A DNA stretch of 64,000 bases from a virus. Under the pieces are notes generated by a model. The model was not told the DNA's origin, made no database searches, and worked only from the letters and a program-made list of their open reading frames with translations. Made by a program: the position numbers and the translations under genes. Numbering within the stretch: the stretch's first letter is position 1; the number at the start of each line of letters is the position of its first letter. The stretch lies in the IMG/VR virus record IMGVR_UViG_3300044949_001956, positions 1 to 64,000 of that record. The stretch is one strand, 5' to 3'. Shown in pieces: positions 49,200 through 62,703 of this stretch.

Positions 49200-49228
49200 A
49201 CCATACCACATCTATATATCAAAGTCAA
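49200..49228 (-). promoter_or_regulatory. Early promoter cassette
   Basis: Minus-strand TTGACT, 17-bp spacer, TATGGT, followed by a leader with GGAGACA. Confidence 0.6.
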
Positions 49229-49235
49229 CCGATCT

Positions 49236-49619
49236 TTAAAGTCGGCGACTCCGAGAACCGAGACAGTTGCCGTCAGACGGGACTGCCACGCCGTAGCCGC
49301 CCTTGTTGTAGAGCTGAGTCACGCCGGCGACCTTGGCCATGACCTGTGTCTGCACGTGGGCCGACTCCTTGTAGAGGTTGGCCATGATGCCCTTGGCTCT
49401 ACCGCCGTCCACGATCGTATTACTGAGTTGAGGCTCTTCGGTCTTGTAAGACGGAATCTTGTTCTTGTGCAGCTTGGCCTTGGTCAACTGCTCGGGATGG
49501 ACGCCGTTGCGGCGAAGCCACGCCTCGTGCTCTGCCTTGGCCTGGACCTGCTTGGCGGTCGGCTTGGGCTTGCACTTGCCGTTCGAGTTGTACATCGGAC
49601 CAAGGAGGTGCATCGTCAT
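49236..49619 (-). CDS. Hypothetical conserved phage protein (127 aa)
   Basis: Starts MTMHLLGPMYNSNGKCKPKP. Contains HEAWLRRNGVHPEQLTKAKL, QLSNTIVDGGRAKGIMANLY and QLYNKGGYGVAVPSDGNCLG. I recall similar proteins in unrelated phages (pattern WLRxxGVHPxQL ... KGGLQ) without a function. Second gene of the transcript from the promoter at 49739-49767. Confidence 0.65.
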   Translation of the reverse strand: MTMHLLGPMYNSNGKCKPKPTAKQVQAKAEHEAWLRRNGVHPEQLTKAKLHKNKIPSYKTEEPQLSNTIVDGGRAKGIMANLYKESAHVQTQVMAKVAGVTQLYNKGGYGVAVPSDGNCLGSRSRRL

Positions 49620-49630
49620 AGGCTGATGCC

Positions 49631-49717
49631 TCAGAATACAAAGATGAGGAAGAAGGCAAACACGGCAAAGAGGGTGACGGCGCCGAGAGCCTCGAAGAGG
49701 ATGTTGGTCATCTGCAT
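49631..49717 (-). CDS. Single-TM microprotein (28 aa)
   Basis: A 28-codon frame, MQMTNILFEALGAVTLFAVF and on to a stop, almost entirely one hydrophobic helix. It has its own strong promoter (49739-49767) and a GGAGACA ribosome binding site directly upstream. The leader's ATG (MNNGD) is in frame. Likely a real early membrane microprotein, perhaps acting on the host envelope. Confidence 0.6.
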   Translation of the reverse strand: MQMTNILFEALGAVTLFAVFAFFLIFVF

Positions 49718-49738
49718 GTCTCCGTTGTTCATAGTCTC

Positions 49739-49767
49739 TTTATACCCTACCTGGCTTTTAAAGTCAA
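49739..49767 (-). promoter_or_regulatory. Early promoter cassette
   Basis: Minus-strand TTGACT, 17-bp spacer, TATAAA, followed by GAGACTATGAACAACGGAGA. One of the near-identical copies in this region. Confidence 0.75.
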
Positions 49768-49796
49768 CCACAGTTTTGTAACCGATTGTAACAGGA

Positions 49797-49864
49797 CTAC
49801 CAGCGATCTTGGTGGGCTAGGTGGGTTTCCCATCAGTCTGGATGGTTTAGATCGCTGGTAGCTG
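49797..49864 (-). repeat. Conserved hairpin element, copy 1
   Basis: Outer inverted repeat CTACCAGCGATCT / AGATCGCTGGTAG (13 bp, perfect) encloses a 19-nt core AGACTGATGGGAAACCCAC (minus-strand reading). A close copy lies on the plus strand at 62271-62341. Both sit just upstream of early promoters. Confidence 0.7.
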
Positions 49865-49872
49865 ACTTTCTT

Positions 49873-49933
49873 GGCTAACCCATTGAGATCCTAACAAAAC
49901 GCCCTATCCCACGGATAGGGCTAAGTTATTGAG
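49873..49933. repeat. Noncoding hairpin stretch with GGCTAACCCATTGAG element
   Basis: Contains GGCTAACCCATTGAG, a motif that recurs (inverted or partial) at 51529-51541, 52118-52145 and 62377-62406, and a strong GCCCTATCC / GGATAGGGC hairpin (about 49902-49922), followed on the minus strand by GTTTTG and so possibly a weak terminator for the gene at 49944-50042. Confidence 0.5.
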
Positions 49934-49943
49934 ACCAAATGAT

Positions 49944-50042
49944 TTATCCGTATATTGTCAAGACTATAAACAGCAAAACCGAAAAGCAGAGGAGGATCAC
50001 GTCTGCAGGACCCCATGGTGGGTCTCTCTCTGGGTCCTTCAT
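49944..50042 (-). CDS. Single-TM microprotein (32 aa)
   Basis: Starts MKDPERDPPWGPADVILLCF and continues as one hydrophobic helix to ...TIYG. The short charged Pro-rich N-terminus followed by a TM segment looks like a genuine small membrane protein. GAGGG lies about 10 nt upstream of the ATG. Last gene of the run starting at 51119. Confidence 0.5.
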   Translation of the reverse strand: MKDPERDPPWGPADVILLCFSVLLFIVLTIYG

Positions 50043-50043
50043 T

Positions 50044-50253
50044 TCATATGATCCCTCTGGTTATGTTTCGGTACTCGTACGGACCGTCGTTTATACCGGG
50101 GCGACGAAGATGAGGTAGTACGTACTGCCTCTCCCTGCGCTCTATGACTTCGAGCCAGACAGTCTCGACACAGACGTCTTCTTCTCGAACTTCGACTGGA
50201 TGCCATGCAAACCAGCGGTGCCACCCGTCTGGGTCTCTACGATTCCAGCGCAC
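50044..50253 (-). CDS. Hypothetical protein (69 aa)
   Basis: GTG start. Trp/Arg-rich N-terminus (RWNRRDPDGWHRWFAWHPVE), then ETVWLEVIERRERQYVLPHL. No other start is possible because of an in-frame stop just upstream. No family, but composition and position in a packed operon favour a real gene. Confidence 0.55.
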   Translation of the reverse strand: MRWNRRDPDGWHRWFAWHPVEVREEDVCVETVWLEVIERRERQYVLPHLRRPGINDGPYEYRNITRGII

Positions 50254-50261
50254 TGTTCACA

Positions 50262-50417
50262 TCATCGGTCATTGTGCATGTTGTCCTTCACAAAGTTAAT
50301 AGCAACAGCAAAGTGCAGGATAGAGGCGGCCCACCATTGCATTTCGCGCTCTGTAATCAGATAGATGAAGCCGAGTACTGTAAAGCTCACGGCCATCACG
50401 ATGTTAAAGATTTTCAT
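50262..50417 (-). CDS. Small two-TM membrane protein (51 aa)
   Basis: Starts MKIFNIVMAVSFTVLGFIYL and contains a second hydrophobic segment (WWAASILHFAVAINFV). Its ATG overlaps the upstream stop (TAATG), supporting coupled translation. No family. Confidence 0.6.
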   Translation of the reverse strand: MKIFNIVMAVSFTVLGFIYLITEREMQWWAASILHFAVAINFVKDNMHNDR

Positions 50418-50704
50418 TATCGCTTTACCGCCTCAAGATCATTCCTCAGTCGATCATTCTCTTCCACTTGTAAGACATAAGCATCATGATACTCGTGCCA
50501 CAACCCATCCAGAAGTGTGATGTTTTCCCTCAGCTGATCACGTTCAGCTAGCAGCATATAAAGAGTCGAGGCAGTCTCTCCGTGCATCTCAGCCAATCCG
50601 TGCGTAGAGGTCATATCAGCGTCAGAATGCTTACGCAGCCTCACAGCCTCATTTTCGTGCCACTTAGCCAGTCGGATAACGTCACTGGTGAGAATGTCGG
50701 TCAT
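50417..50704 (-). CDS. Hypothetical helical protein (95 aa)
   Basis: Starts MTDILTSDVIRLAKWHENEA with GGAGG 7 nt upstream. Highly helical and charged (DQLRENITLLDGLWHEYHDA). No family. Third gene of the transcript from the promoter at 51145-51173. Confidence 0.6.
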   Translation of the reverse strand: MTDILTSDVIRLAKWHENEAVRLRKHSDADMTSTHGLAEMHGETASTLYMLLAERDQLRENITLLDGLWHEYHDAYVLQVEENDRLRNDLEAVKR

Positions 50705-50706
50705 GC

Positions 50707-50907
50707 TCAATCCTCCAGCATCGAGATGGCGACCATCTGGTCGGGTTCAAAGATGAGAGACGTGCTCGGATATGAGCGCATCTCGTACGCGCACCTGAGG
50801 ATGACTCGAGTGGCGGTTTGGTTGACCTCGATCACAAACTTGTCCTCATCCTCGAGGTAGTCGCCGGGGCACACGTCCTCGGCTCGGATTTCCTTGCGGT
50901 ACCTCAT
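50707..50907 (-). CDS. Hypothetical protein (66 aa)
   Basis: Starts MRYRKEIRAEDVCPGDYLED with GGAGG about 10 nt upstream. Beta-rich, with a DEDKFVIEVNQTATRVILRC stretch that may form a small SH3-like barrel. No assigned function. Confidence 0.6.
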   Translation of the reverse strand: MRYRKEIRAEDVCPGDYLEDEDKFVIEVNQTATRVILRCAYEMRSYPSTSLIFEPDQMVAISMLED

Positions 50908-50909
50908 GA

Positions 50910-51119
50910 TCACTCAACCTCCAGTCGTTCACCATCAAGGAGCCGCTCGCAAGCCGGAGCGTCGACTCCAACTTCGTGAATGAAGTAGTCGTACTGCGTG
51001 GTGCGGTTAGCGGCCTCGAAGGTCCGAGCCGCAACCAGAGCGATCTCGCGAGTCGAATAAACGCCCAGGACGGTACCGGGCTCGTAAGTGATCTCACCCA
51101 TAAGAACGTAGACGGTCAT
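50910..51119 (-). CDS. Hypothetical early protein (69 aa)
   Basis: Starts MTVYVLMGEITYEPGTVLGV. Looks like an alpha/beta small protein of the kind seen in phage early regions (YFIHEVGVDAPACERLLDGE). Directly downstream of an early promoter (51145-51173) and AGGAGACAGACAG. Confidence 0.6.
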   Translation of the reverse strand: MTVYVLMGEITYEPGTVLGVYSTREIALVAARTFEAANRTTQYDYFIHEVGVDAPACERLLDGERLEVE

Positions 51120-51144
51120 CTGTCTGTCTCCTGTTTATGGTTTA

Positions 51145-51173
51145 ACTATAACCTAGATGGAAATTAAAGTCAA
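51145..51173 (-). promoter_or_regulatory. Early promoter cassette
   Basis: Minus-strand TTGACT, 17-bp spacer, TATAGT, then a leader with AGGAGACA before the 69-aa gene. Confidence 0.7.
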
Positions 51174-51184
51174 CCCCTATTTGA

Positions 51185-51451
51185 TTAACCCTTGGTAATT
51201 TCCGCCAGGGCGGCCTTGCCGGTCTTGCCGAGCGCATTGTTTGCCGTCAGAATCTGCACCCCGAGATCGTAGCTGATATGACCCTCACGGATAGCAGCCA
51301 CCACCTGGCGCTGGATCGCAAGCTTGCGCTCTGCAGCGTTTATGTTGGCCCGGTTTCGGGTGCCCGTGGAGTTCGGCCGCGGGCGGAGGGCATGCTGCAG
51401 GGAAGTGGGGAGCTTGGCGATGTCGGCCAGGGTTTTAATTTCCGTGATCAC
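51185..51451 (-). CDS. Hypothetical early protein (88 aa)
   Basis: GTG start chosen because GGAG lies 6 nt upstream; an in-frame ATG at 51472 (MDNGDTG) sits at the predicted +1 of the promoter and is the alternative. Basic, with ALRPRPNSTGTRNRANINAA and a helical AERKLAIQRQVVAAIREGHI. No family. Confidence 0.6.
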   Translation of the reverse strand: MITEIKTLADIAKLPTSLQHALRPRPNSTGTRNRANINAAERKLAIQRQVVAAIREGHISYDLGVQILTANNALGKTGKAALAEITKG

Positions 51452-51478
51452 ACCCGTGTCTCCGTTGTCCATAGTCTC

Positions 51479-51507
51479 TTTATACCCCATTCCGGGATTA
51501 AAGTCAA
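51479..51507 (-). promoter_or_regulatory. Early promoter cassette
   Basis: Minus-strand TTGACT, 17-bp spacer, TATAAA, then GAGACTATGGACAACGGAGA. Confidence 0.75.
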
Positions 51508-51537
51508 CCCCTATTTTTGTTATTAAAACTCAATGGG

Positions 51538-51777
51538 TTAGTCCAGCTCGACTTCCTCGACCTGGGACTGGGACTCTGTCAGTTCCTGGTGCTGCTCCAG
51601 GAGCTCCATCATGGCCCGGCACATCTCGTACATGTTGTTGAACGGGCGCTGCTCGTACTGGTTCAGCTGCAGCGGCTCTCCGTTCTCAAGCGCCTCTTCG
51701 ATACCCGCGGCACACTGCTTCATGGCAGCCATGGTGTTCTCGAACATGCAGTAGGACATGTTGGGGTAGTCGCGCAT
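51538..51777 (-). CDS. Hypothetical protein (79 aa)
   Basis: Starts MRDYPNMSYCMFENTMAAMK with AGGAGAG about 7 nt upstream. The MSYCxFENT segment occurs in many small phage and bacterial proteins of unknown function. The tail is acidic (ESQSQVEEVELD). Second gene after the promoter at 52079-52107. Confidence 0.65.
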   Translation of the reverse strand: MRDYPNMSYCMFENTMAAMKQCAAGIEEALENGEPLQLNQYEQRPFNNMYEMCRAMMELLEQHQELTESQSQVEEVELD

Positions 51778-51808
51778 TCTATCTCTCCTTCTGATGACGA
51801 TTTGTGGA

Positions 51809-52051
51809 TTAACCGACGACCTTGAAGCCGTCGAGTGCATTGTATGTCACGTAGCCGTCATTCTGCAGGATCGTGAGAGGAGGATTGGACTTCAGCTTCT
51901 CCACCCAATCCTCGAGCGTGTAGTGCTTGCAGAGGATCTTGATGTACTCGCCTTTCTTGACGGCACCGCGATACTTAAAGCGGGCGATGAAGTTACCCTG
52001 ATAGGTCAGGTAGCCACCGTGATATTCAAAGCCGGAACGTTCAAATTTCAT
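51809..52051 (-). CDS. Hypothetical early protein (80 aa)
   Basis: Starts MKFERSGFEYHGGYLTYQGN with GGAGACAGACAG directly upstream; an in-frame upstream ATG (MNNGDRQ) lies at the predicted +1. Beta-rich N-terminus, then YIKILCKHYTLEDWVEKLKS. No family. Confidence 0.6.
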   Translation of the reverse strand: MKFERSGFEYHGGYLTYQGNFIARFKYRGAVKKGEYIKILCKHYTLEDWVEKLKSNPPLTILQNDGYVTYNALDGFKVVG

Positions 52052-52078
52052 CTGTCTGTCTCCGTTGTTCATAGTCTC

Positions 52079-52107
52079 TTTATACCACCACCCGCTATAA
52101 AAGTCAA
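52079..52107 (-). promoter_or_regulatory. Early promoter cassette
   Basis: Minus-strand TTGACT, 17-bp spacer, TATAAA, then GAGACTATGAACAACGGAGA. Confidence 0.75.
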
Positions 52108-52117
52108 CCCCATACAA

Positions 52118-52145
52118 ATCAATGGGTTACGGCTAACCTATTGAT
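52118..52145. repeat. Hairpin ATCAATGGGTTA / TAACCTATTGAT
   Basis: 12-bp imperfect inverted repeat (one mismatch) with a 4-nt loop, directly upstream of the early promoter at 52079-52107. Related to the CAATGGGTTAG elements at 51529-51541, 49873 and 62377. Confidence 0.55.
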
Positions 52146-52183
52146 CTATATGGGGCTGTTTTTTTATAAAAAAGTAGGGTGTT

Positions 52184-52555
52184 TTAGATCAAGGGTTTAG
52201 CCTGACCCCTCTCCATGTAGTGGACCACGCACCTCTGAGCCCTGTAGAACTGCTTGATGGTGTCCAGACAGTCCATGGGGTCGCAGTCGCCGCACATGAA
52301 GGCATCTATGAGAGCAGACCCATGCTCTGGCCAGGTGTGGACCGAGATGTGAGACTCGGCAAGCACGATGACGCCGGTGTATCCGTGACCGTCTCCGAAG
52401 TGGTGCCAGCGCTCGGTGATGACGGTGGCGCCCGCCTCGTTTGCGGCTCTCTTCAGAGCCTCGGCGGCGCCGTCCATGTCCCAGAAGGGCATGGAACCGA
52501 CCTCACCCCACACGTCTACTACAAGGTGCCTTCCCAGAGGCCTAGTCTGATCCAT
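52184..52555 (-). CDS. speD: S-adenosylmethionine decarboxylase proenzyme, bacterial SpeD type
   Basis: 123 residues. It has the full class 1b signature VLAESHISVHTWPEHGSALI, with the pyruvoyl-forming Ser after HI and catalytic His, and FMCGDCDP. It makes decarboxylated AdoMet for spermidine synthesis. Length is the bacterial norm. This is the second AdoMet decarboxylase-like gene here (the other is at 12099-12458). GAGGG lies upstream. Confidence 0.9.
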   Translation of the reverse strand: MDQTRPLGRHLVVDVWGEVGSMPFWDMDGAAEALKRAANEAGATVITERWHHFGDGHGYTGVIVLAESHISVHTWPEHGSALIDAFMCGDCDPMDCLDTIKQFYRAQRCVVHYMERGQAKPLI

Positions 52556-52586
52556 CGCATGTGACCCTCAGCGTTGTTGCGGGTGG

Positions 52587-52594
52587 TATTTAGA
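52587..52594 (-). promoter_or_regulatory. Possible late promoter (TCTAAATA) for speD
   Basis: Minus strand, one mismatch to TATAAATA, about 35 nt before the speD ATG. Confidence 0.35.
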
Positions 52595-53186
52595 CCTGCC
52601 AGTTGAGGTTCGAGTTAAAGAAGACCATGCCGCTGAATCGAATGTAGCGCTGGGTCATGGTAGACGCCCTGCGGACCTCATCAGTAGTCACCATGTCAAG
52701 CAAGAAGCCGCGCTTACCGAACTGCTGGAACCAGTAGTTGGGATCCTGCTCGTTGACGTGGTGGTGTCCGCCCTGGCCGGGGAAAGCGTGGGTGACCACG
52801 ATGCGCTTGCACTTGCCGAACGTGTCCATGTAGTTGTCCATGTACTGCTCGGACACGTGCTCAAGAAACTCACAGGACCAGCCTAGGTCCCAGTAATCCC
52901 CAAATGGAGATCCAACTGGGGCGGGACCCTTGGTGTAGTCGTGGAGGACGTAGCGGTCTGGGTCCGGTCGCTCTAGGGTAAAGTCGCCGTCCACACCCAG
53001 TGACACAAGTCCCTTGCTGTGGGCAAGCTCTACCATCCCCCCGGGCCCGCACCCGACGTCGAGGTATGACTTCACGCCGAACTTGTTGATGAAGTGATCT
53101 AGAGCGCCCTCGTCGATGTGAGTCTCGTTCTGGTGCCCGCCAAGGTGAGAGGGAAGTCCATTGGCGTCGGTGATGACTAGCTTCAT
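52590..53186 (-). CDS. Class I SAM-dependent methyltransferase
   Basis: 198 residues from MKLVITDANGLPSHLGG. The SAM-binding motif YLDVGCGPGGMVELA and SLGVDGDFTLERP are clear, and WDLGWSCEFLEHV is the motif II region. The C-terminal half has THAFPGQGGHHHVNEQ. This is a common phage/FkbM-like family; the substrate is unknown, with sugars or peptides possible. Frames further upstream run into the tRNA-Tyr gene, so this ATG or the one at 53201 must be the start. Confidence 0.75.
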   Translation of the reverse strand: MKLVITDANGLPSHLGGHQNETHIDEGALDHFINKFGVKSYLDVGCGPGGMVELAHSKGLVSLGVDGDFTLERPDPDRYVLHDYTKGPAPVGSPFGDYWDLGWSCEFLEHVSEQYMDNYMDTFGKCKRIVVTHAFPGQGGHHHVNEQDPNYWFQQFGKRGFLLDMVTTDEVRRASTMTQRYIRFSGMVFFNSNLNWQV

Positions 53187-53212
53187 TCTGTATCCATCCA
53201 TGAGATCAAAAA

Positions 53213-53297
53213 TGGTGGGAGGTGCTGGGTTCGAACCAGCCGTGACCGAAGTCGCCGGATTTACAGTCCGGTGCCCGTCCACTCGAGCATACCTCCC
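53213..53297 (-). tRNA. tRNA-Tyr(GTA)
   Basis: 85 nt with acceptor GGGAGGT / ACCTCCC, discriminator A and encoded CCA. The anticodon loop is CTGTAAA, giving GTA. The long variable arm expected for Tyr is present. T-loop TTCGAAC. Confidence 0.92.
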
Positions 53298-53301
53298 AAA
53301 G

Positions 53302-53375
53302 TACCCGCTGTCGGATTCGAACCGACGCTGAAAGGCTTTTAAGGCCCATACCTCTGCCTGTTGGGTTAAGCGGGC
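53302..53375 (-). tRNA. tRNA with UAA anticodon (Leu-type) but short variable arm
   Basis: Acceptor GCCCGCT / AGCGGGT, T-arm GTCGG TTCGAAT CCGAC, anticodon loop CTTAAAA giving UAA, a Leu anticodon. The variable region is only about 5 nt, whereas tRNA-Leu is normally a class II tRNA with a long arm. CCA is not encoded. Charging identity is uncertain. Confidence 0.75.
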
Positions 53376-53389
53376 AGACACACTATATA

Positions 53390-53464
53390 TGGTAGTTCCT
53401 GTCAGATTCGAACTGACGACCTACTGATTAAGAGTCAGCTGCTCTACCGCTGAGCTAAGGAACT
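53390..53464 (-). tRNA. tRNA-Lys(CTT)
   Basis: Acceptor AGTTCCT / AGGAACT, anticodon loop CTCTTAA (CTT), T-loop TTCGAAT, encoded CCA. Confidence 0.9.
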
Positions 53465-53470
53465 GTAGGG

Positions 53471-53547
53471 TGGTGTTCCCGGCGAGACTCGAACTCACGA
53501 CCCCCAGATTAGGAATCTGGTGCTCTATCCAGCTGAGCTACGGGAAC
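53471..53547 (-). tRNA. tRNA-Arg(CCT)
   Basis: Acceptor GTTCCCG / CGGGAAC, anticodon stem CCAGA/TCTGG with loop TTCCTAA (CCT), T-loop TTCGAGT, encoded CCA. Confidence 0.92.
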
Positions 53548-53550
53548 AAG

Positions 53551-53844
53551 TCACTTGAAGAACTCATCTGCATTGAAGGCCTTGTCGTCGATCCACACGT
53601 CGTACGAGGGCTTACCCAACTTCAGGCTCGTGTACTTGCAACCCCAGTCGGCAAGCTGATTGTGAGTCAACTCAGTCCAGTCCTTGCCAGATCCAGAGCC
53701 GCGGGCCGTCCAGTAGTGGATCTCATGGCCTTGGTCATAGAGTCGATTGAACAAGTAGATCCGATCCATCAAGGGTTGTGCGTGGGGATAGTCGCCCTCG
53801 GTGTTGGTGCAGATCGTGCCGTCAATGTCAACCAGATACTTCAT
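53551..53844 (-). CDS. HAD-like phosphatase
   Basis: 97 residues from MKYLVDIDGTICTNTEGDYP. The HAD motif I DIDGT is present, YWTARGSGSG matches motif II (T/S), and DVWIDDKAFNADEFF gives the C-terminal acidic pair. Such minimal HADs occur beside capsule and LPS genes and in phages; it could dephosphorylate a sugar phosphate (for example a GmhB-type step missing from the heptose set), but this is inference. Overlaps the zinc-finger gene upstream by 17 nt. Confidence 0.78.
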   Translation of the reverse strand: MKYLVDIDGTICTNTEGDYPHAQPLMDRIYLFNRLYDQGHEIHYWTARGSGSGKDWTELTHNQLADWGCKYTSLKLGKPSYDVWIDDKAFNADEFFK

Positions 53845-54025: not shown

Positions 54026-54044
54026 AGCGATTATCCTCTGGAGT

Positions 54045-54390: not shown

Positions 54391-54401
54391 GCAAGCCCTA
54401 C

Positions 54402-54890
54402 TTAGAAGCGATAGTTCAGACCGAGGGTTACACGGTCCGCAGTCACGTCTCCACTAAAAGCCTCTACACGACGATAGCGAGCGTCGACCTGCCAGTTGGC
54501 GCTCAGGTTGTAAGCCACGCCTACGCCGGCATTCCACAGCGCCTGAGGATCATTGGCAGCATCGGCAAGTGCATTGAAGCCGTAGCCAGCGCCCACCAGG
54601 ACATACGGAACCACGGGACCCAGAGGATACCCAGCAGTCACGTTTGCAAAGACCGCCTGACCGCCACGCTGAGTCTCCGTCTGAGCGGTGAAGTCACCGA
54701 GTGCCTCTACAGCAAGGAAGCGGTTGACGCGATACCCTACGGTTGCAGTTCCGCCCCACTGGGCATCTTCAACCGAGCGGCCCTGAGTCGCTGCGGCGGC
54801 GCCGACATAGACGCCAGACTGAGCCGCGGCTTCAGTAGCAAAGGCGCCGACGGCAAGAGCAGCGACGAGAGCAATACCAGTCTTGTTCAT
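54402..54890 (-). CDS. Outer-membrane beta-barrel protein
   Basis: 162 residues. Signal peptide (MNKTGIALVAALAVGAFATEAAA), then alternating strands typical of an 8-stranded OMP barrel (GTATVGYRVNRFLAVEALGD, VDARYRRVEAF) ending in LGLNYRF, the BAM-type C-terminal Phe signature. OmpA-like/Omp25-like family. It could alter the infected cell surface or block superinfection (inference). GGAG lies 8 nt upstream of the ATG, just after the tmRNA gene. Confidence 0.8.
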   Translation of the reverse strand: MNKTGIALVAALAVGAFATEAAAQSGVYVGAAAATQGRSVEDAQWGGTATVGYRVNRFLAVEALGDFTAQTETQRGGQAVFANVTAGYPLGPVVPYVLVGAGYGFNALADAANDPQALWNAGVGVAYNLSANWQVDARYRRVEAFSGDVTADRVTLGLNYRF

Positions 54891-54919
54891 GTAGTTTCTC
54901 CATATCGAGTTGTGAGGTC

Positions 54920-55203
54920 GGTTGATTCTGTTTCTAGGCTCAACCGTAAGCCCAAGAGATTACGCCGCTAAGCGAGTCTCAACAAAGCCGTTATCGTTGG
55001 CGTTTGTGTTGGTTTGTTGCGTTGGGTAGCTTCCGCACCATTGCCTACTTCGACCCTTACTGTCATCAGTCGATCCTGTTTCCGCCCCAAAGGAAAACTG
55101 TGACGTATCATCACTGACAGAGGTCACAGCCGTGTTATTGGTGGAGCGGCGGAGTGCTGCCCTCCGGTCCTGTCTGACCTATTTGGTCGCTATCATCAGC
55201 AAC
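54920..55203 (-). ncRNA. ssrA: Two-piece (circularly permuted) tmRNA
   Basis: Read on the minus strand. The acceptor piece comes first and ends CCGCTCC-A-CCA (55148-55139), with a T-arm CGGAG/CTCCG just before. After an about 50-nt spacer (itself with a CTGTGAC/GTCACAG hairpin) the coding piece begins GGGGCGG (55088-55082), pairing with CCGCTCC to rebuild the 7-bp acceptor stem. The tag frame reads ANDNGFVETRLAA followed by TAA (stop at 54960-54962), matching proteobacterial tags (AND...LAA). Permuted tmRNA is the alphaproteobacterial form. Outer ends are approximate. The promoter lies directly upstream. Confidence 0.88.
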
Positions 55204-55207
55204 AAGG

Positions 55208-55215
55208 TATTTATA
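55208..55215 (-). promoter_or_regulatory. T4-type late promoter TATAAATA overlapping the tmRNA -10 box
   Basis: A perfect late consensus that shares bases with the sigma70-type -10 of the tmRNA promoter, so the same site could be used early and late. Confidence 0.55.
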
Positions 55216-55237
55216 CACCAGTCCTAGTCGAAGTCAA
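55210..55237 (-). promoter_or_regulatory. Early sigma70-type promoter for tmRNA
   Basis: Minus-strand TTGACT, 16-bp spacer, TATAAA. The predicted +1 (about 55203) is just before the acceptor piece; it overlaps the 3' end of the 103-aa gene. Confidence 0.75.
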
Positions 55238-55535
55238 CCTTTTCCGACACAAGAGTTCGAGTCTCAGTGACCTTAGTGACTTGAATCGTCTCGAGCTTTG
55301 GAGAGTAATAGCTGGGCCCGACCTTTGATCTTGCTACGCTTATAGCCTTCTCTTTGGTGTCGAACTTGTATGCCAGCGTCTCGTTGGTGATCCACTGAAA
55401 GATGTTGTACTGGTAGTCGATGGAGACCCAAGCTGGTACATTCTCCTCCATCATCACGTACCCGGCTGAGTTCTCAGACTGATTCATCCGGACCGATACC
55501 GTGTAGTACTCTGTCTTGATCTCGTTAACTGTCAT
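55224..55535 (-). CDS. Hypothetical protein (103 aa)
   Basis: Starts MTVNEIKTEYYTVSVRMNQS. Beta-rich with repeated Thr/Val, ending TETRTLVSEKVDFD. No family. Overlaps the 61-aa membrane protein gene by 4 nt. Confidence 0.6.
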   Translation of the reverse strand: MTVNEIKTEYYTVSVRMNQSENSAGYVMMEENVPAWVSIDYQYNIFQWITNETLAYKFDTKEKAISVARSKVGPSYYSPKLETIQVTKVTETRTLVSEKVDFD

Positions 55536-56095: not shown

Positions 56096-57139
56096 CTACG
56101 TCCAGATTGATTGACCGTTCGGACTACGAATACGATCTCTCCAAGCAGCTCGGATCAGCTCATGAGTCGCAGCAGGGAGCGGAATGTACTCTAGACGAGA
56201 GGCAATGTCACTGCCCTGACGGTATGCCCAATCAAAGAAGCGCATCGTATTCAAGCTGCCCGCCACCTTGTCCGCCGTCGGGTTGGTCGGCAACAGGATG
56301 TAGGTGGGCGAGGTGATCGGCCACACCGTCGCACCGTTCAGGTCGATGGTGTCGGCGGCGAAGTTCGGCACATTCCAATCGGCCGCCGCGGCGGTCGCCA
56401 GGAAGGCAGGCGGCTCCGGGCGCACGAAGTTGCCGGACTTGTTCCGGATCTGCGTGGTCGGCATCCGGTTCACCACGGCATAGGCGTTCTCGATGTAGCC
56501 GATCGTGCCCGGGGTGTTGCGGATGATGTTCGACACGCCTTCATTGCCGCGCGCGCCATTGCCCACCGGCCAGCGCACGGAGGTCCCGGCACCCGGACCA
56601 TTGCGCCACTCTTGGGAGATGCGCGAGAGATAGGTCGTCCACACCCAGGTCGTGCCCGAGCCATCGGCACGGTAGGCGACCGAAAGCGGCAGGTTCGGGA
56701 TACGGATGTCGCGGTTCAGCTCGGCGATCCGCGGATCGTTCCAGCGGGTGATCCGGCCGAAGAAGATGTCGGTGATGATTTCCGGCGTCAGGCGCAGCGC
56801 ATTGTCCGCCACACCCGGCAGGTTCGCGCTCAGCACGACCGAGCCCATGACGGTCGGGAACTGCAGAAGGTTGCGCTCGGCGAGCTGCGCCGTGGTCAGC
56901 GGCGCGTCAGAGGCGCCGAAATCGACCGTACGCGCGGTGATCTGGTTGATGCCGCCGCCGGAGCCGATTGACTGGTAGTTCAGCTGCACGCTGATGGCTT
57001 CTCGTGCGGCCTGCGCCCAGCGCTCATAGAGCGGACGGGGGAAGGTGGCGCCGGCGCCGGTGATCGTAAGTGTTTGTGCTGATAGACTGGGGGATGCTAG
57101 TAGAGCGGCACCAGTCAGCATTAATGTTCGTCGGTCCAT
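56096..57139 (-). CDS. pstS: Periplasmic phosphate-binding protein PstS
   Basis: 347 residues with a signal peptide (MDRRTLMLTGAALLASPSLSA). The P-binding sites are visible: ITGAGATFPRPLYERW, QSIGSGGGINQI, DFGASDAPL and VAYRADGSGTTWVW. It binds phosphate for the host Pst transporter. The middle of the gene (about 56.23-57.06 kb) is much richer in GC and GC-ending codons than its flanks, as expected for a recently host-derived gene. AAGGAG lies before the ATG. Confidence 0.92.
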   Translation of the reverse strand: MDRRTLMLTGAALLASPSLSAQTLTITGAGATFPRPLYERWAQAAREAISVQLNYQSIGSGGGINQITARTVDFGASDAPLTTAQLAERNLLQFPTVMGSVVLSANLPGVADNALRLTPEIITDIFFGRITRWNDPRIAELNRDIRIPNLPLSVAYRADGSGTTWVWTTYLSRISQEWRNGPGAGTSVRWPVGNGARGNEGVSNIIRNTPGTIGYIENAYAVVNRMPTTQIRNKSGNFVRPEPPAFLATAAAADWNVPNFAADTIDLNGATVWPITSPTYILLPTNPTADKVAGSLNTMRFFDWAYRQGSDIASRLEYIPLPAATHELIRAAWRDRIRSPNGQSIWT

Positions 57140-57991: not shown

Positions 57992-58067
57992 TGGTGAGAG
58001 TGTGGTGGAGTCGAACCACCTCCGGCGTAGGCCACGTCTCCGCTCAGCTCCCAGCTCTTACACTCTC
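57992..58067 (-). tRNA. tRNA-like sequence, isotype unassigned
   Basis: 76 nt with acceptor GAGAGTG / CACTCTC (extendable to 8 bp), discriminator A, encoded CCA, and a perfect T-arm GGTGG TTCGACT CCACC. No anticodon stem-loop with a U33 fits the middle section, so it may be a degenerate or unusual tRNA. Confidence 0.5.
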
Positions 58068-58073
58068 AAACTT

Positions 58074-58168
58074 TGGTAGTCGTGACAGGACTCGAACCTG
58101 CAACCGCGCACCAATCTAGTGCATACGAGAGGTATAAGCTCTCCGCTCTGCCATTGAGCTACACGACC
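58074..58168 (-). tRNA. tRNA with UAU anticodon (Ile-type) and expanded variable arm
   Basis: 95 nt with acceptor GGTCGTG / CACGACT and encoded CCA. D-arm TAGCTCAATGGCAGAGC. Anticodon stem GAGAG/CTCTC with loop CTTATAC gives UAU. An 18-nt hairpin-forming insert (GCAC/GTGC) lies in the variable region, unusual for Ile. T-loop TTCGAGT. Confidence 0.75.
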
Positions 58169-58173
58169 AAAAA

Positions 58174-58250
58174 TGGTGCCCGCAGAGAGATTTGAACTCC
58201 CGACCTACTGATTACAAATCAGTTGCTGCTACCAGCTGAGCTATACGGGC
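58174..58250 (-). tRNA. tRNA-Thr(TGT)
   Basis: Acceptor GCCCGTA / TGCGGGC, anticodon stem ACTGA/TCAGT with loop TTTGTAA (TGT), T-loop TTCAAAT, encoded CCA. Confidence 0.9.
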
Positions 58251-58411
58251 TAGTTGGCTCGGGCTAACACCACCACGTTCGCAGTAGCGCTTGATCTCTT
58301 ATCGCACCCCCGAGCAGCACGATCGTATCCTACTACTAACCCGAACCGCTATCTCTGCTGTTACACTAACGATCCGGGATCTCAGCCCAAATAGGCGTAA
58401 GCTGAAGATTT

Positions 58412-58487
58412 TGGCTGGCCTGGCAGGGCTCGAACCTGCGACCCGGTGATTAACAGTCACCTGCTCTACCAGCTGAGCTACAGACCA
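58412..58487 (-). tRNA. tRNA-Asn(GTT)
   Basis: Acceptor TGGTCTG / CAGGCCA, anticodon stem GGTGA/TCACC with loop CTGTTAA (GTT), T-loop TTCGAGC, discriminator G, encoded CCA. The 160 bases before it (58251-58411) hold no gene I can support. Confidence 0.93.
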
Positions 58488-58501
58488 CAACCCATTATAT
58501 A

Positions 58502-58732
58502 TCAGGCAGCCTTGGTGCGGCGCTTGGCCTTCTCGACCAGTCGGTAGAAGTTCTTGGACTGACCCTTGGAGTTGGTGCGCTCGACAAGCTCGACCTGGAA
58601 GCCGTTCTCGCGGAGACGGTAAATCAGATGGTACGGCTGGCTGATGCGGAAGCGTGCAGCAATCTGCTTTGCGGTCAGTTCAGTGCCCGAGCGCATCGTG
58701 GTCAGAAGACGGTTATAAGCGGTAGTTTCCAT
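58502..58732 (-). CDS. Small winged-helix/HTH-type protein (76 aa)
   Basis: Starts METTAYNRLLTTMRSGTELT with AGGAGAT upstream. TAKQIAARFRISQPYHLIYR followed by RENGFQVELVERTNSKG looks like a helix-turn-helix with a beta wing. A DNA-binding regulator is the likely role. Its basic tail (KAKRRTKAA) supports nucleic-acid contact. Confidence 0.7.
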   Translation of the reverse strand: METTAYNRLLTTMRSGTELTAKQIAARFRISQPYHLIYRLRENGFQVELVERTNSKGQSKNFYRLVEKAKRRTKAA

Positions 58733-58743
58733 GTTATATCTCC

Positions 58744-58932
58744 TTAGAGGATGTCAATGAGTCGGCCGTTCTCATCAACGGCACGAACTCGGTGGTCCGG
58801 CAGCATTCGAGCCGCCGCTTCCATGTAAGACTGAACCAGTTGAGCCGAGGAGCCAGCGCCGTTACCGACTCGGTTGATAGTCGACCAGTCGGAGTACTTG
58901 TTGGCAACTTGGATCAGTAGATCGCCGTTCAT
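58744..58932 (-). CDS. Small hypothetical early protein (62 aa)
   Basis: Starts MNGDLLIQVANKYSDWSTIN. Contains QLVQSYMEAAARMLPDHRVR. AAGGAA lies about 11 nt upstream; promoter at 58965-58993. Transcribed with the winged-helix gene. No family. Confidence 0.6.
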   Translation of the reverse strand: MNGDLLIQVANKYSDWSTINRVGNGAGSSAQLVQSYMEAAARMLPDHRVRAVDENGRLIDIL

Positions 58933-58964
58933 GTGGAAGTTGGTTCCTTTTGGTTAACTCTTAT

Positions 58965-58993
58965 GTTATACCATGGGTGGGGTATAAAGTCAA
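58965..58993 (-). promoter_or_regulatory. Early promoter cassette
   Basis: Minus-strand TTGACT, 17-bp spacer, TATAAC, 33 nt before the 62-aa gene. Confidence 0.7.
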
Positions 58994-59036
58994 CCATAGT
59001 TTTGTAACAGAGTGCTACAGCAGGTTTGTATACAAA

Positions 59037-59477
59037 CTAGATTGTATACTCGAAGTTCACGGTGAACTCATTCTCCTGCAGTAGCTTGGCACCGTTTGAG
59101 AGGTGAAAGTCTCTAGCCATGTCCGTCTTGGGACTCAGAGTGACTGCTCGAGTCACACGAGGCTTGTTCCAGCGGATATGGGTGAGCGCTTGGGTGATGA
59201 TCTTTCGCCCAGAGCCCTTCTGGAAGGACCAGACCGAGTAGAAGCAAGCCACGTTGAAGCTCGACCACTCAGACAGAACGTCGGCTTCGGTCTTGGGTAC
59301 CGCACCGAGATAGGCGCCGCACAGCACCGCCTTCACGCTTATCTCCTCATGGAGCACAAAGCACTCTCGGTTTGCCGCTATTCGCTGCCAATGAGTTATG
59401 TTAGGCCTGACTGGATCGGTCTGAAGTACCTGCGACCAGTGCTCACTGTGTGTCCTGACTGCGGTCAATTGCTCCAT
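59037..59477 (-). CDS. GNAT-like acetyltransferase
   Basis: 146 residues. The central strand-loop-helix CFYSVWSFQKGSGRKIITQA matches the acetyl-CoA pyrophosphate loop (Q/R-x-x-G-x-G/A), followed by FHLSNGAKLLQENEF, the family's C-terminal strand. The substrate is unknown. Probably acetylates a small molecule or host protein. Confidence 0.7.
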   Translation of the reverse strand: MEQLTAVRTHSEHWSQVLQTDPVRPNITHWQRIAANRECFVLHEEISVKAVLCGAYLGAVPKTEADVLSEWSSFNVACFYSVWSFQKGSGRKIITQALTHIRWNKPRVTRAVTLSPKTDMARDFHLSNGAKLLQENEFTVNFEYTI

Positions 59478-59519
59478 GATGTCACCCCAAGTTTGACTTG
59501 CAGTACTATATAACCTACC

Positions 59520-59717
59520 TCAGTAGGCGGGGGTAAAGTACTCTAGGGTCTTCTTGATGGCCCTGTAGTGCTCGTCGATCTCCTTGATATTCTCGAGTCG
59601 ATTGCCGAGTCCATACTTGAGCACCATGTCGAGCTCGGAGTGCATTGCGCGCTCGAGGATCTCGAGGTGGTACTTTAGAAAGTCGATCGTAACTGCTTCG
59701 TCGTGGATCTTGCTCAT
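59520..59717 (-). CDS. Hypothetical protein (65 aa)
   Basis: Starts MSKIHDEAVTIDFLKYHLEI. All-helical (ERAMHSELDMVLKYGLGNRL). No family. First of a run of small genes in this block. Confidence 0.55.
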   Translation of the reverse strand: MSKIHDEAVTIDFLKYHLEILERAMHSELDMVLKYGLGNRLENIKEIDEHYRAIKKTLEYFTPAY

Positions 59718-59718
59718 G

Positions 59719-60021
59719 TCAGAGTGTTCTCACAATGGTGTGTCTAAAGCGAGTGGTAGAGCCATAGGCTTCCCAGGATGGCTGTCTAAGCTCTCGAAGA
59801 AGACCTAGCTTTGCATTCTCTAGGTCCGCGGACCTCAAGGCATCATCTTGGGCCTTTGCAAAGATTATAGTTTCCTTCTCGCCCAGCACCTCTTCCTTGA
59901 TCTTGTATGCGGTGGTCCTGACTACGTACCGCTTCTTGCCCTTGGTATCCTTCACGTACTTGGTGAAGTACCCGTAGGGCTTGCTGTCCCAGATGTCATC
60001 TAGCTCTTCTTTGCTGAGCAT
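59719..60021 (-). CDS. Hypothetical protein (100 aa)
   Basis: Starts MLSKEELDDIWDSKPYGYFT. Basic beta-rich middle (DTKGKKRYVVRTTAYKIKEE) and helical end. No family recognised. Confidence 0.55.
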   Translation of the reverse strand: MLSKEELDDIWDSKPYGYFTKYVKDTKGKKRYVVRTTAYKIKEEVLGEKETIIFAKAQDDALRSADLENAKLGLLRELRQPSWEAYGSTTRFRHTIVRTL

Positions 60022-60022
60022 G

Positions 60023-60217
60023 TCAGACCTTCATGATCGCACGGAGCATCTTCTCTTCAACGCCAGCTGCAAGAGCGACGTTGTAGAGCGTCCGGAGCTT
60101 TCGAATGGTCAAGTCGATGGCTTCCTGGTTGGAGATGCCCTCCAGGTCCTCGACTCCCATATAGGACAGGGAGTCGCAGAGGTGGTCGATCAATTCAGTC
60201 ACTTCGGACTCACTCAT
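60023..60217 (-). CDS. Hypothetical protein (64 aa)
   Basis: Starts MSESEVTELIDHLCDSLSYM with GGAGACAAGACC directly upstream, the same type of ribosome binding site as the other early genes. Helical, with ISNQEAIDLTIRKLRTLYNV. No family. Confidence 0.6.
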   Translation of the reverse strand: MSESEVTELIDHLCDSLSYMGVEDLEGISNQEAIDLTIRKLRTLYNVALAAGVEEKMLRAIMKV

Positions 60218-60251
60218 GGTCTTGTCTCCGTATGTTTGGATGTACACAGTG

Positions 60252-60578
60252 TTACGCGACATACCAGGTCTCGATCTCGTCTTCTACCTGGATGGACTCA
60301 GAGCCGTCGTACTCGGTGATCTTGAACCGAGTGCCCTGGGGAATCCACTCGATCTCCAGGTCATAAAAACCACTCCCGAGGTAGATGCCTGGGTACGTAT
60401 CTTCCAGATACTTGATCATGTCGTCCCTGCTCATGGACTTGCCGTCGGTCCGGACGTACTCGACGACAGTCGGATCAAACAAGATCGCTGGATGATCCTC
60501 ATTCCAAGTCGACCAGCCAGAGCCGAAGCTCGGGCTAAACAGTACGGCAACGTTGCCGCCTTCAATCACCTTGTGCAT
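60252..60578 (-). CDS. Conserved hypothetical protein (108 aa)
   Basis: Starts MHKVIEGGNVAVLFSPSFGS with GAGGAG about 9 nt upstream. Contains GWSTWNEDHPAILFDPTVVE and LEIEWIPQGTRFKITEYDGS, a pattern I have seen in phage and bacterial proteins of unknown function (VLFSPxFGxGW ... EWIPxGTxFxIxEYDGSE). Confidence 0.7.
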   Translation of the reverse strand: MHKVIEGGNVAVLFSPSFGSGWSTWNEDHPAILFDPTVVEYVRTDGKSMSRDDMIKYLEDTYPGIYLGSGFYDLEIEWIPQGTRFKITEYDGSESIQVEDEIETWYVA

Positions 60579-60585
60579 ATATCTA

Positions 60586-61026
60586 TCACTCCTCTGTTTG
60601 GCTGTCACTAACTATCACGAGTTCAGCTTGAAGCTCGCATCGAACCGTGTGTCGGCACTTCTTGTGGAACTGCCAGCCGGTGCACGTGCAGGACCAGAGT
60701 CGTGTGTGGCTATTCAGCTGCACGATATATACTTCACCGGTCTTGGACGAGGTCACGTTGTAGACCCGGTCCTTGATGGGCGCCTTCGGCTTTACCGGCT
60801 TGTCGTTGACAGCAACGATCCGATGCTCGGGCACCATGTTGAGGGCCCTGGTCTCCGAGTTGAGGAGACACACGTGAGGGCCCTTGAGCCAAGACGGTGC
60901 ACCGACCACGGTGCCACGAAGAGTGTCGGTCTTCCGTGCACGGTGCTTGCTGTCGTGAGCAAAGTACTGCAGAGTGTGAGCCATGTCGATGGTCACCTCG
61001 ACCTCAGAACCGATAGGCAATTCCAT
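60586..61026 (-). CDS. SWIM-type zinc-finger protein
   Basis: 146 residues. The C-terminal SWIM motif is visible as WSCTCTGWQFHKKCRHTVRC (CxCx(n)CxH). The N-terminal part is beta-rich (GSEVEVTIDMAHTLQYFAHD). SWIM domains bind DNA or protein; the role here is unknown. Own early promoter at 61052-61079 and AAGGAA before the ATG. Confidence 0.75.
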   Translation of the reverse strand: MELPIGSEVEVTIDMAHTLQYFAHDSKHRARKTDTLRGTVVGAPSWLKGPHVCLLNSETRALNMVPEHRIVAVNDKPVKPKAPIKDRVYNVTSSKTGEVYIVQLNSHTRLWSCTCTGWQFHKKCRHTVRCELQAELVIVSDSQTEE

Positions 61027-61051
61027 ATTGGTTTCCTTTATGTCACTACCG

Positions 61052-61079
61052 ATTATACCGAGGCCAAGGCAAAAGTCAA
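61052..61079 (-). promoter_or_regulatory. Early sigma70-type promoter for the SWIM gene
   Basis: Minus-strand TTGACT, 16-bp spacer, TATAAT, about 26 nt before the ATG. Confidence 0.7.
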
Positions 61080-61082
61080 CGA

Positions 61083-61505
61083 CTATGCTATCTTCTCCAT
61101 CTTGGACCGCACCTCGCGCTCGAGTCGATCCCAGCGACTGATCTTGCCGTTGCTGTAGGCAAAGTCGTCGCTCATCTCGTCCTGGTAGCGCCAGTTCTTA
61201 ATGTTGTCGAGGGTCTGCTGCAGCACCTCTCGAGTTATCTCAGGGAGATCCTCGATCTGTTCTCGGGCCCAGGTCAGCGCCTGTGAGCGGGTGGCAAAGG
61301 TACCCAGACGGGTATCGGTGCCGAGCTCTTCGCTGATGGGGTTGTAGACGGTGACGCCGAACTGCTCGCCGACCTTGTGGTGAGAGTTGTACACGAGCGT
61401 GCCGTAGACCTTCTGGGTGTCGTCGTCAATCAGGCGCCAGCCCTTGTACCAGACCTCACCCTGCTTGTTCTTGTAGTCGATGATCTTCTTGGCGACCAGG
61501 TTCAT
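61083..61505 (-). CDS. Hypothetical protein (140 aa)
   Basis: Starts MNLVAKKIIDYKNKQGEVWY with CGGAGAG upstream; its ATG overlaps the upstream stop (TGATG). Contains DTRLGTFATRSQALTWAREQ, a small alpha/beta pattern, and a charged C-terminus. No family. Confidence 0.6.
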   Translation of the reverse strand: MNLVAKKIIDYKNKQGEVWYKGWRLIDDDTQKVYGTLVYNSHHKVGEQFGVTVYNPISEELGTDTRLGTFATRSQALTWAREQIEDLPEITREVLQQTLDNIKNWRYQDEMSDDFAYSNGKISRWDRLEREVRSKMEKIA

Positions 61506-61771
61506 CACTTCTCTCCGTACTTGGCCTTGTCAAGGCTGCGGCGAATGCTGCTGACCAAGATCTCAGCGGAGTTGATCGCGGCCTCTGGGTTCATGCGGCC
61601 CGCACTGAAGAAGGCCGACTCGAGGCGACCGATGTGGGAGGAGTAGGCCGTCCGCCAGGCATCGGACTCCTTGGCGCCGTTCTTGACCAGAGTCTCGGCA
61701 TACTCCATGGTCAGCTTGAACGCGGTGTCCAGGAGCTGATTGATCCGAACGGAATCGGTGTTGTCGCTCAT
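61505..61771 (-). CDS. Hypothetical early protein (88 aa)
   Basis: Starts MSDNTDSVRINQLLDTAFKL with GGAGACAGACAG directly upstream; an in-frame leader ATG (MDNGDRQ) lies at the predicted +1. Helical, with NPEAAINSAEILVSSIRRSL. No family. Confidence 0.6.
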   Translation of the reverse strand: MSDNTDSVRINQLLDTAFKLTMEYAETLVKNGAKESDAWRTAYSSHIGRLESAFFSAGRMNPEAAINSAEILVSSIRRSLDKAKYGEK

Positions 61772-61798
61772 CTGTCTGTCTCCGTTGTCCATAGTCTC

Positions 61799-61827
61799 TT
61801 TATAACCCAGGTCGCTTTTAAAGTCAA
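61799..61827 (-). promoter_or_regulatory. Early promoter cassette
   Basis: Minus-strand TTGACT, 17-bp spacer, TATAAA, then GAGACTATGGACAACGGAGA. Confidence 0.75.
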
Positions 61828-61835
61828 CCCCTATC

Positions 61836-62078
61836 TCAGTTATAATTCCAGGCTTCCATCGAGACCTGGTGACCCGCCGAAGCCCATTCGGCCCGAAAGC
61901 CGTTGAACAGGGAAATGGCGAGCTTGGAGCCCGACGTCTCGAAGATATCGTATACAGAGCGATCGCCGCTCTCGGCGTCAACTTCCCAGATGATCACCCG
62001 ATACGTGTCGAACCCCTGCAGCTCGGCGGGGAGCCGCTTTTGGGTGAGGTTCCGGGAGAGATCGATGTTGATGGCCAT
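61836..62078 (-). CDS. Hypothetical early protein (80 aa)
   Basis: Starts MAINIDLSRNLTQKRLPAEL with CGGAGACAGACACA upstream. Beta-alpha small protein with IIWEVDAESGDRSVYDIFET. No family. Confidence 0.6.
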   Translation of the reverse strand: MAINIDLSRNLTQKRLPAELQGFDTYRVIIWEVDAESGDRSVYDIFETSGSKLAISLFNGFRAEWASAGHQVSMEAWNYN

Positions 62079-62105
62079 TGTGTCTGTCTCCGTGTTGATA
62101 GTCCC

Positions 62106-62134
62106 TTTATACCACCACCCGCTTTTAAAGTCAA
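62106..62134 (-). promoter_or_regulatory. Early promoter cassette (variant leader)
   Basis: Minus-strand TTGACT, 17-bp spacer, TATAAA. The leader has ATC instead of the in-frame ATG seen in other copies. Confidence 0.72.
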
Positions 62135-62270
62135 CCCCTATCTTGCGGCACCCACCGGCAGACCCCCACAAAGGTACCCGCTAGGCAAAAAGTCAATAAA
62201 ATCAATAACTTAGCCGATCTAGGGGTTCTATACAAAATGTATAAGAATCAATGGTTTAGCCGATTCCATA

Positions 62271-62341
62271 CAGCTACCAGCGATCTAAGTCAGCTAGACT
62301 GATGGGAAACCCACTAGAGCGGCTTAGTACGATAGTAGCTG
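62271..62341 (+). repeat. Conserved hairpin element, copy 2
   Basis: Outer stem CAGCTAC...GTAGCTG with paired internal CG and TAAG blocks encloses the 19-nt core AGACTGATGGGAAACCCAC (62296-62314), identical to copy 1 at 49821-49839 (opposite strand). A TTTTT run follows, so it may also terminate transcription. Confidence 0.7.
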
Positions 62342-62376
62342 TTTTTAGGTGACCCGCAAAAATTATTTCCGAATCT

Positions 62377-62406
62377 TCTCAATGCGTTGAAGCTAACCCA
62401 TTGAGA
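62377..62406. repeat. Hairpin TCTCAATGCGTT / AACCCATTGAGA
   Basis: 12-bp imperfect stem directly upstream of the plus-strand early promoter; related to the elements at 49873, 51529 and 52118. Confidence 0.5.
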
Positions 62407-62414
62407 TGGCGTGG

Positions 62415-62443
62415 TTGACTTTTATAGCGGCTAGGGGTATAAA
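62415..62443 (+). promoter_or_regulatory. Early promoter cassette
   Basis: Plus-strand TTGACT, 17-bp spacer, TATAAA, then GAGACTATGAACAACGGAGA. Confidence 0.75.
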
Positions 62444-62470
62444 GAGACTATGAACAACGGAGACACACAA

Positions 62471-62671
62471 GTGGATCGGATTGATCGGAACAAGGTTCGC
62501 GAACTGACCCGTGCGCTGGAAGCCCGGGTGAACTCTCCCCACTACGTCATCGGCTGGCTGGAGTCCATGATCGCCTCGGTCGACTCGCCGGTCCGCCTGA
62601 CCAAGAAGCAGGTCAAGGCCTTCAACGAGATGCTCGACGACAACATCCGCTGGGCATCGGAGACGAAGTGA
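62471..62671 (+). CDS. Hypothetical early protein (66 aa)
   Basis: GTG start (VDRIDRNKVRELTRALEARV) with GGAG 8 nt upstream; the in-frame ATG at 62450 (MNNGDTQ) at the predicted +1 is the alternative. Helical, basic, with SPVRLTKKQVKAFNEMLDDN. No family. Confidence 0.6.
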   Translation: MDRIDRNKVRELTRALEARVNSPHYVIGWLESMIASVDSPVRLTKKQVKAFNEMLDDNIRWASETK

Positions 62672-62675
62672 CCTA

Positions 62676-62703
62676 TTGACTTTATTCTCAGATCGGATAT
62701 AAT
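62676..62703 (+). promoter_or_regulatory. Early sigma70-type promoter
   Basis: Plus-strand TTGACT, 16-bp spacer, TATAAT, 25 nt before the 160-aa gene, with ACGGAGACAGAC before the ATG. Confidence 0.75.

Follow-up and report, generated by a model that had tools for sequence, protein, structure and literature searches.

Our analysis of the first 64 kb (the window) of the 107,845-bp IMG/VR record IMGVR_UViG_3300044949_001956, a T4-like phage by its gene content, reveals a copied expression cassette of about 57 bp, composed of a promoter, a leader and a start codon, in front of otherwise unrelated small genes. Judged from sequence, the main protein start of these genes is the ATG or GTG that is led by a Shine–Dalgarno (SD) motif and lies 21 nt downstream of the predicted transcript start (+1). 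In five copies, a further ATG sits at the predicted +1, in frame with the main start. We consider it fairly likely that this is a copied early cassette with an SD-led main start, whose predicted 5’-terminal AUG is also engaged by ribosomes. The transcript start is predicted from the spacing to the –10 element, and the timing is called early because the promoter is host-like.

The leader, GAGACTATG(A/G)ACAACGGAGA, occurs in five exact copies, each behind a near-identical TTGACTTT-N-TATAAA promoter. The sequence GAGACTATGRACAACGGAGA is found with 0 mismatches at 49719–49738, 51459–51478, 52059–52078 and 61779–61798 on the minus strand and at 62444–62463 on the plus strand, while shuffled sequence yields a mean of 0.02 occurrences even with 3 mismatches tolerated; the five copies reported in an earlier note on this DNA (49739, 51479, 52079, 61799 and 62415) are exact and far above shuffles. 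The rest of the 107.8-kb record holds no additional GAGACTATGRACAACGGAGA copy, and exact cassette searches of the IMG/VR viral contigs returned no second phage with the cassette sequence. Promoters of the form TTGACT-N15–18-TATAAW number 10 in the window against 0.01 expected, and nine of them fall inside 49200–62703 together with at least three weaker sites (49228, 51173 and 58993), in agreement with the ten or more sites claimed earlier; the promoters said to precede uvsX and the polymerase were located at 43580 and 46379.

From the –10 element through the six following bases and the leader to the start codon, the cassette reads TATAAA gagact ATGAACAACGGAGACAGACAG ATG. The seventh base after the –10 element is the usual +1, and the leader ATG lies at this position in 5/5 copies, in frame with the downstream gene as the earlier note had stated, though the spacing from this ATG to the second start (ATG or GTG) is exactly 21 nt throughout. 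Each of the five second starts is preceded by a perfect GGAG at a distance of 8 nt. In a sixth copy at 62134 (minus strand) the +1 triplet is ATC (gggactATCAACACGGAGACAGACACA followed by ATG), and in a related leader at 51173 (minus strand) it is ATA (taaaccATAAACAGGAGACAGACAG followed by ATG); both retain the SD block. Folding of the 5’ ends gave no common structure that hides the SD or the AUG. The cassettes and the genes they drive are as follows.

49711..49767, minus strand: cassette 1; –35 TTGACT at 49767, –10 TATAAA at 49744–49739, predicted +1 ATG at 49732, SD GGAG, second start ATG at 49711; gene 49631–49711, a 26-codon hydrophobic peptide gene.
51449..51507, minus strand: cassette 2; –35 at 51507, +1 ATG at 51472, second start GTG at 51451; gene 51185–51451 (88 aa).
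52049..52107, minus strand: cassette 3; –35 at 52107, +1 ATG at 52072, second start ATG at 52051; gene 51809–52051 (80 aa, PHROG 22119).
61769..61827, minus strand: cassette 4; –35 at 61827, +1 ATG at 61792, second start ATG at 61771; gene 61505–61771 (88 aa).
62415..62473, plus strand (opposite to the others): cassette 5; –35 at 62415, +1 ATG at 62450, second start GTG at 62471; gene 62471–62671 (66 aa).
62076..62134, minus strand: cassette 6, same promoter and leader with ATC as the +1 triplet; start ATG at 62078; gene 61836–62078 (80 aa).
51117..51173, minus strand: related promoter and leader with ATA at +1; start ATG at 51119; gene 50910–51119 (69 aa, PHROG 3002).
62676..62731, plus strand: related promoter with a leader ending in ATCAACGGAGACAGAC before the ATG and without a +1 ATG; gene 62729–63211.

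Searches against PHROGs gave no match for genes 1, 2, 4, 5 and 6. The product of gene 1, MTNILFEALGAVTLFAVFAFFLIFVF, is probably a single-pass membrane peptide, and its gene is missed by length-limited lists of open reading frames.

Alignment of the cassettes, put forward earlier as a check, places the homology from the –35 element to the start codon, with sharp ends on both sides. In pairwise comparison of the six copies, the stretch between –35 and +1 is 82% identical and the leader 66% (aligned without gaps), against about 20–35% for both flanks and for the genes, the latter in keeping with the claim that the driven genes are otherwise unrelated. Therefore, promoter, leader and start codon were copied together as one unit. 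Cassettes 5 and 3 share a 57-nt inverted match of 93%, and copies are thus found on both strands.

The SD-led second codon is, by comparison with orthologues, the conserved start of both genes for which this can be judged, genes 2 and 3. Gene 2 has an orthologue in six contigs (84–85% amino acid identity) with an ATG exactly at the position of the GTG in the window, behind a different leader (gatcttATAGGAAAGGGATACCGAT followed by ATG) without a usable in-frame upstream start. A 96%-identical orthologue of gene 3 (L095) reads ggcaccATCAGATGGAGAACGACAG and then ATGAAATTC, and starts at the second ATG; consistent with this, the PHROG 22119 profile aligns from residue 1 of the second-start protein. 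More distant orthologues of gene 3 read gaaaatATGATGAACGAGGGAAAAACG and then ATGACGAAG, again with an in-frame +1 ATG but encoding another peptide. Searches of isolate phages for orthologues of genes 2 and 4 and of the leaderless gene described below found none. For genes 2 and 3, the orthologues bear out the suggestion that GGAG serves a later start. Because the orthologues of two genes begin at the second start without the extension, MNNGD appears not to be a conserved tag. The earlier note had weighed an N-terminal tag made by leaderless translation against a translation enhancer spread by copying. The copied leader is well supported by its borders, the sister copies without ATG and the orthologue starts, whereas a conserved or functional MNNGD tag finds no support, given the 96%-identical orthologue without the extension. 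Broken frames in other copies had been named as evidence against the proposal; sister copies have indeed lost the ATG, but this genome contains no copy with an out-of-frame +1 ATG.

Whether the +1 AUG is read by ribosomes can be approached through a gene of the same phage that depends on such a codon.

7728..8146, minus strand: leaderless gene; –35 at 8146, –10 TACAAT, then acaatc and ATG 8111 at the predicted +1, no SD; 127 aa.

Orthologues of this gene keep the arrangement, with TATAAT-gacact-ATG (6 nt after the –10) in L104 (66%) and TATAAT-acact-ATG (5 nt after the –10) in L113 (52%). For 306 promoters from the window and from loci that had not been fetched for a +1 ATG, the ATGs opening reading frames of at least 50 codons peak 6 nt after the –10 element (14/35); four of these 14 are the window cassettes, and some are orthologues of one another. 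Among the matches listed for IMG/VR contigs with TTGACA-N16–18-TATAAT-N6-ATGAAC, the majority of genes are plainly leaderless. The remaining counts are likewise among the matches listed. In the SD-led subset, 12/14 leaders are in frame for ATGAAC versus 11/64 for ATAAAC. An enlarged sample, deduplicated by gene, gave 33/45 in frame for +1-AUG leaders versus 16/56 for non-AUG leaders (p=9e-6), and 17/28 versus 6/38 (p=2e-4) after removal of the commonest lineage. In one lineage, the in-frame +1-AUG leaders measure 21, 24 and 27 nt, while ATA and TTA leaders have any length. Together with the E. coli precedent given below, these indirect lines, none conclusive by itself, make use of the +1 AUG by ribosomes probable.

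The frame bias might in principle stem from leaderless genes that happen to contain an SD-like motif, and control 4-mers point away from them: the in-frame:out-of-frame counts are 9:1 for GGAG and 9:0 for AGGA, with about 0–3 each for control words. Such genes inflate the in-frame count somewhat, by what the control 4-mers suggest is little.

In T4-like relatives (56–84% polymerase identity), similar promoters each stand before one small gene, and every lineage has a leader of its own. One locus (L113, G006:C1:39601-59441) carries about 15 consecutive single-gene cassettes at about 12300–19200, reading TTGACA-N17-TATAAT-ccacttATAAACAGGAGA... up to the ATG, with leaders of 18–36 nt that disregard frame. 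The +1 triplet there is mostly ATA; ATC, ACA, GTA and two ATGs (one in frame, one out) also occur. The theme shared by the leaders is a transcript that opens with AT-N-AAC and continues to an SD, and ATG at +1 is one variant of that opening. Some of the L113 leaders contain a GGCCNNTGGCC palindrome. In another lineage (L134, L145, L160, L171, L188, L196, L197, L210 and L236), many cassettes have the form TATAAT-acacac-ATN...GGAGCACA before the ATG, and leaderless orthologous genes coding for MN..RKKRVDR are also present.

Several observations weigh against use of the 5’ AUG. Because the 21-nt spacing is constant, the frame agreement in this genome is a single inherited event, and a reading as five independent in-frame ATGs is ruled out. 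The L095 orthologue of gene 3 manages without a +1 AUG and without any in-frame upstream start. In several T4-like lineages, the +1 ATG of the polymerase leader lies 20 nt before the gene and in another frame (L114 12289, L117 15547, L038 7037, L068, L074 and L081), and some other leaders also carry an out-of-frame +1 ATG; the in-frame rule is therefore not absolute; the out-of-frame polymerase ATG might serve translational control. The cross-phage counts come from a non-random sample in which genes are not independent, because cassettes are copied, and when leaders are grouped into loose clusters the in-frame excess among the matches listed shrinks to 7/11 versus 2/11 (p=0.08).

One alternative is that the cassette is a plain copied 5’ untranslated region, in which promoter and SD alone matter, while ATG at +1 arose by chance as a third-base variant of AT(A/C/G)AAC and never initiates. 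The sister copies with ATC and ATA, the prevalence of ATA and of leader lengths in all frames among relatives, the constant 21 nt in the window and the near-identical gene 3 orthologue without the AUG all fit this account, which nevertheless leaves unexplained both the excess of in-frame +1-AUG leaders across phages and the varying yet in-frame lengths of 21, 24 and 27 nt in one lineage, and sits poorly with leaderless genes that show +1 AUGs in use in these phages. We regard it as possible but rather doubtful. At the opposite extreme, translation could begin mainly at the +1 ATG, with MNNGD/MDNGD acting as a functional tag on early proteins. An open frame in phase in 5/5 copies, the conservative change between N and D at residue 2 and the occurrence of leaderless genes in this phage would agree with it; because of the untagged orthologues of two of the five genes, which start at the second codon, and the ATC of cassette 6, it was dropped as the main role. 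The perfect GGAG in 5/5 and the different peptides at this position in other phages (MNSNTQEHT, MNTKEHK and MMNERKND) also argue against a tag, which we hold to be very improbable.

A different emphasis treats the identical promoter-leaders mainly as recombination sites that let unrelated genes shuffle, so that their near-identity would reflect recent copying or homogenisation and not selection on expression. Homology that ends at the cassette borders while the genes differ, copies on both strands with two 93% alike over 57 nt, and a strong stem-loop abutting the cassette 3 promoter are consistent with such a role, and the promoter-early stem-loops (PeSLs) of T4-type phages are reported to mediate gene shuffling among T4-like phages (cited in PMC4503421). 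Against it, a clear stem-loop directly at the promoter is confined to cassette 3, with a weaker one at cassette 5, and no exchanged gene pairs were seen at the borders, no sufficiently close relative of the region having been found. As the main role of the repeats this seems rather unlikely to us; a recombination role and an expression role can coexist.

In the mechanism that we favour, with the 5’ AUG engaged beside the SD-led start, the cassette joins a promoter of the host sigma-70 type to the first bases of the transcript, a GGAG SD and the spacer to the start codon, and copies of it precede six or more small genes, each a single gene unrelated to the others, with both strands represented. 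In five copies, the predicted transcript opens with an AUG that shares the frame of the SD-led start. Most likely, ribosomes would bind this 5’-terminal AUG as on leaderless mRNAs, which would aid loading of the leader, or give a minor isoform extended by seven residues (M-N/D-N-G-D-x-x), or both; as a sequence, the MNNGD peptide probably has no function. More tentatively, and quite possibly, several phage lineages may keep an AUG first codon in frame with an SD-led start 15–30 nt downstream, so that leaderless and SD loading proceed on one short mRNA without conflict, with the copied cassette spreading this module to new genes here. If the in-frame 5’ AUG is used, the annotated starts of many small phage genes give an incomplete picture, and the compact combination of leaderless and SD initiation might stay productive when infection disturbs host initiation. 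If it is unused, the promoter-plus-leader cassette would still let genes newly acquired by the phage be expressed at once.

Similar combinations have been described in individual host genes. On E. coli mRNAs with an SD-led start, an AUG at the 5’ end binds 70S ribosomes and is able to drive expression of the gene downstream or to modulate it (Beck, Fleming and Janssen 2016, PMC4965119); for ptrB, with a leader of 26 nt, changing the AUG to AUC cut expression to <8% (PMC4965119). The phage cassettes share the short leader and the (here predicted) 5’-end AUG upstream of a canonical SD-led start, and cassette 6 is a natural counterpart of the AUG-to-AUC knock-out. They differ in that the upstream AUG shares the frame of the main start and belongs to a phage cassette that was copied, whereas that study chose out-of-frame upstream AUGs and set in-frame cases aside. 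In the alphaproteobacterium S. meliloti, 171 leaderless transcripts were reported, all beginning with AUG (PMC3616915). The AUG at the predicted +1 and the true leaderless gene at 8111 recall this situation; however, the five cassettes all carry an SD and a second start, and only the 8111 gene has the +1 ATG as its sole start. Start-associated sequences repeated before many unrelated small genes and linked to translation initiation are also known from cluster K mycobacteriophages (PMC3203893). Compared by description only, the likeness lies in a repeat before the starts of unrelated small phage genes; the phages and sequences are unrelated, the repeat here includes the promoter, and the inverted-repeat extension of the ESAS is not a constant part here.

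The closest parallel in T4-type phages is the PeSL, described as a mobile regulatory cassette (Arbiol et al. 2010; Comeau et al. 2014; cited in PMC4503421). As far as that account goes, the shared features are a host-like sigma-70-type promoter repeated before non-homologous small genes in a plastic region of a T4-like phage and, in one copy (cassette 3), a stem-loop immediately before the promoter.

52110..52183, minus strand: stem-loop; its 3’ arm abuts the –35 of cassette 3, a PeSL-like arrangement.

A fold of 102 nt at cassette 3 has –36.3 kcal/mol as a raw folding energy; the abutting stem-loop is weaker at cassette 5 and not evident at the others. By contrast with PeSLs as cited there, the copied part here runs through leader and SD to the start codon, with the +1 AUG in frame, and the stem-loop is not a constant part. 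The cassette resembles the T4 PeSL in spreading expression signals; given the inconstant stem-loop, its inclusion among the PeSLs is not established.

Two further sets of repeats accompany the cassettes. A 44-nt inverted repeat pair (CTACCAGCGATCT...; 49821–49864 and 62271–62314), 91% complementary, has its two members 12.4 kb apart, close to either end of the cassette-rich region; a role as hairpin, origin or recombination element is conceivable. A second small family, TAACCCATTGA/TCAATGGGTTA, forms hairpins upstream of several cassettes.

49870–49887, 51529–51546, 52119–52144 and 62379–62404: members of the second repeat family.

With respect to the phage itself, the window holds genes for a T4-type DNA polymerase, UvsX and a DnaB-like helicase, together with tRNAs and a permuted tmRNA of the alphaproteobacterial type. 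This content marks the record as a T4-like phage, and its host is probably an alphaproteobacterium. Among isolates, cyanophage polymerases are nearest (~48% identity); megablast of the phage against INPHARED gave short polymerase and tRNA matches and nothing else. Sinorhizobium phages phiM12, phiM7, phiM19 and phiN3 carry relatives of one cassette-driven gene. The tmRNA (54869–55256, minus strand) matches Rfam tmRNA_permuted and alpha_tmRNA and has the tag ANDNGFVETRLAA; a TTGACT...TATAAA promoter at 55237 overlaps its predicted ends, and similar promoter-led sequences are present in L009 and L026. Two possible auxiliary metabolic genes lie on the minus strand, an S-adenosylmethionine decarboxylase-like gene at 52184–52555 (PHROG 3125) and a phosphate/solute-binding-protein-like gene at 56096–57139 (Pfam PBP_like_2).

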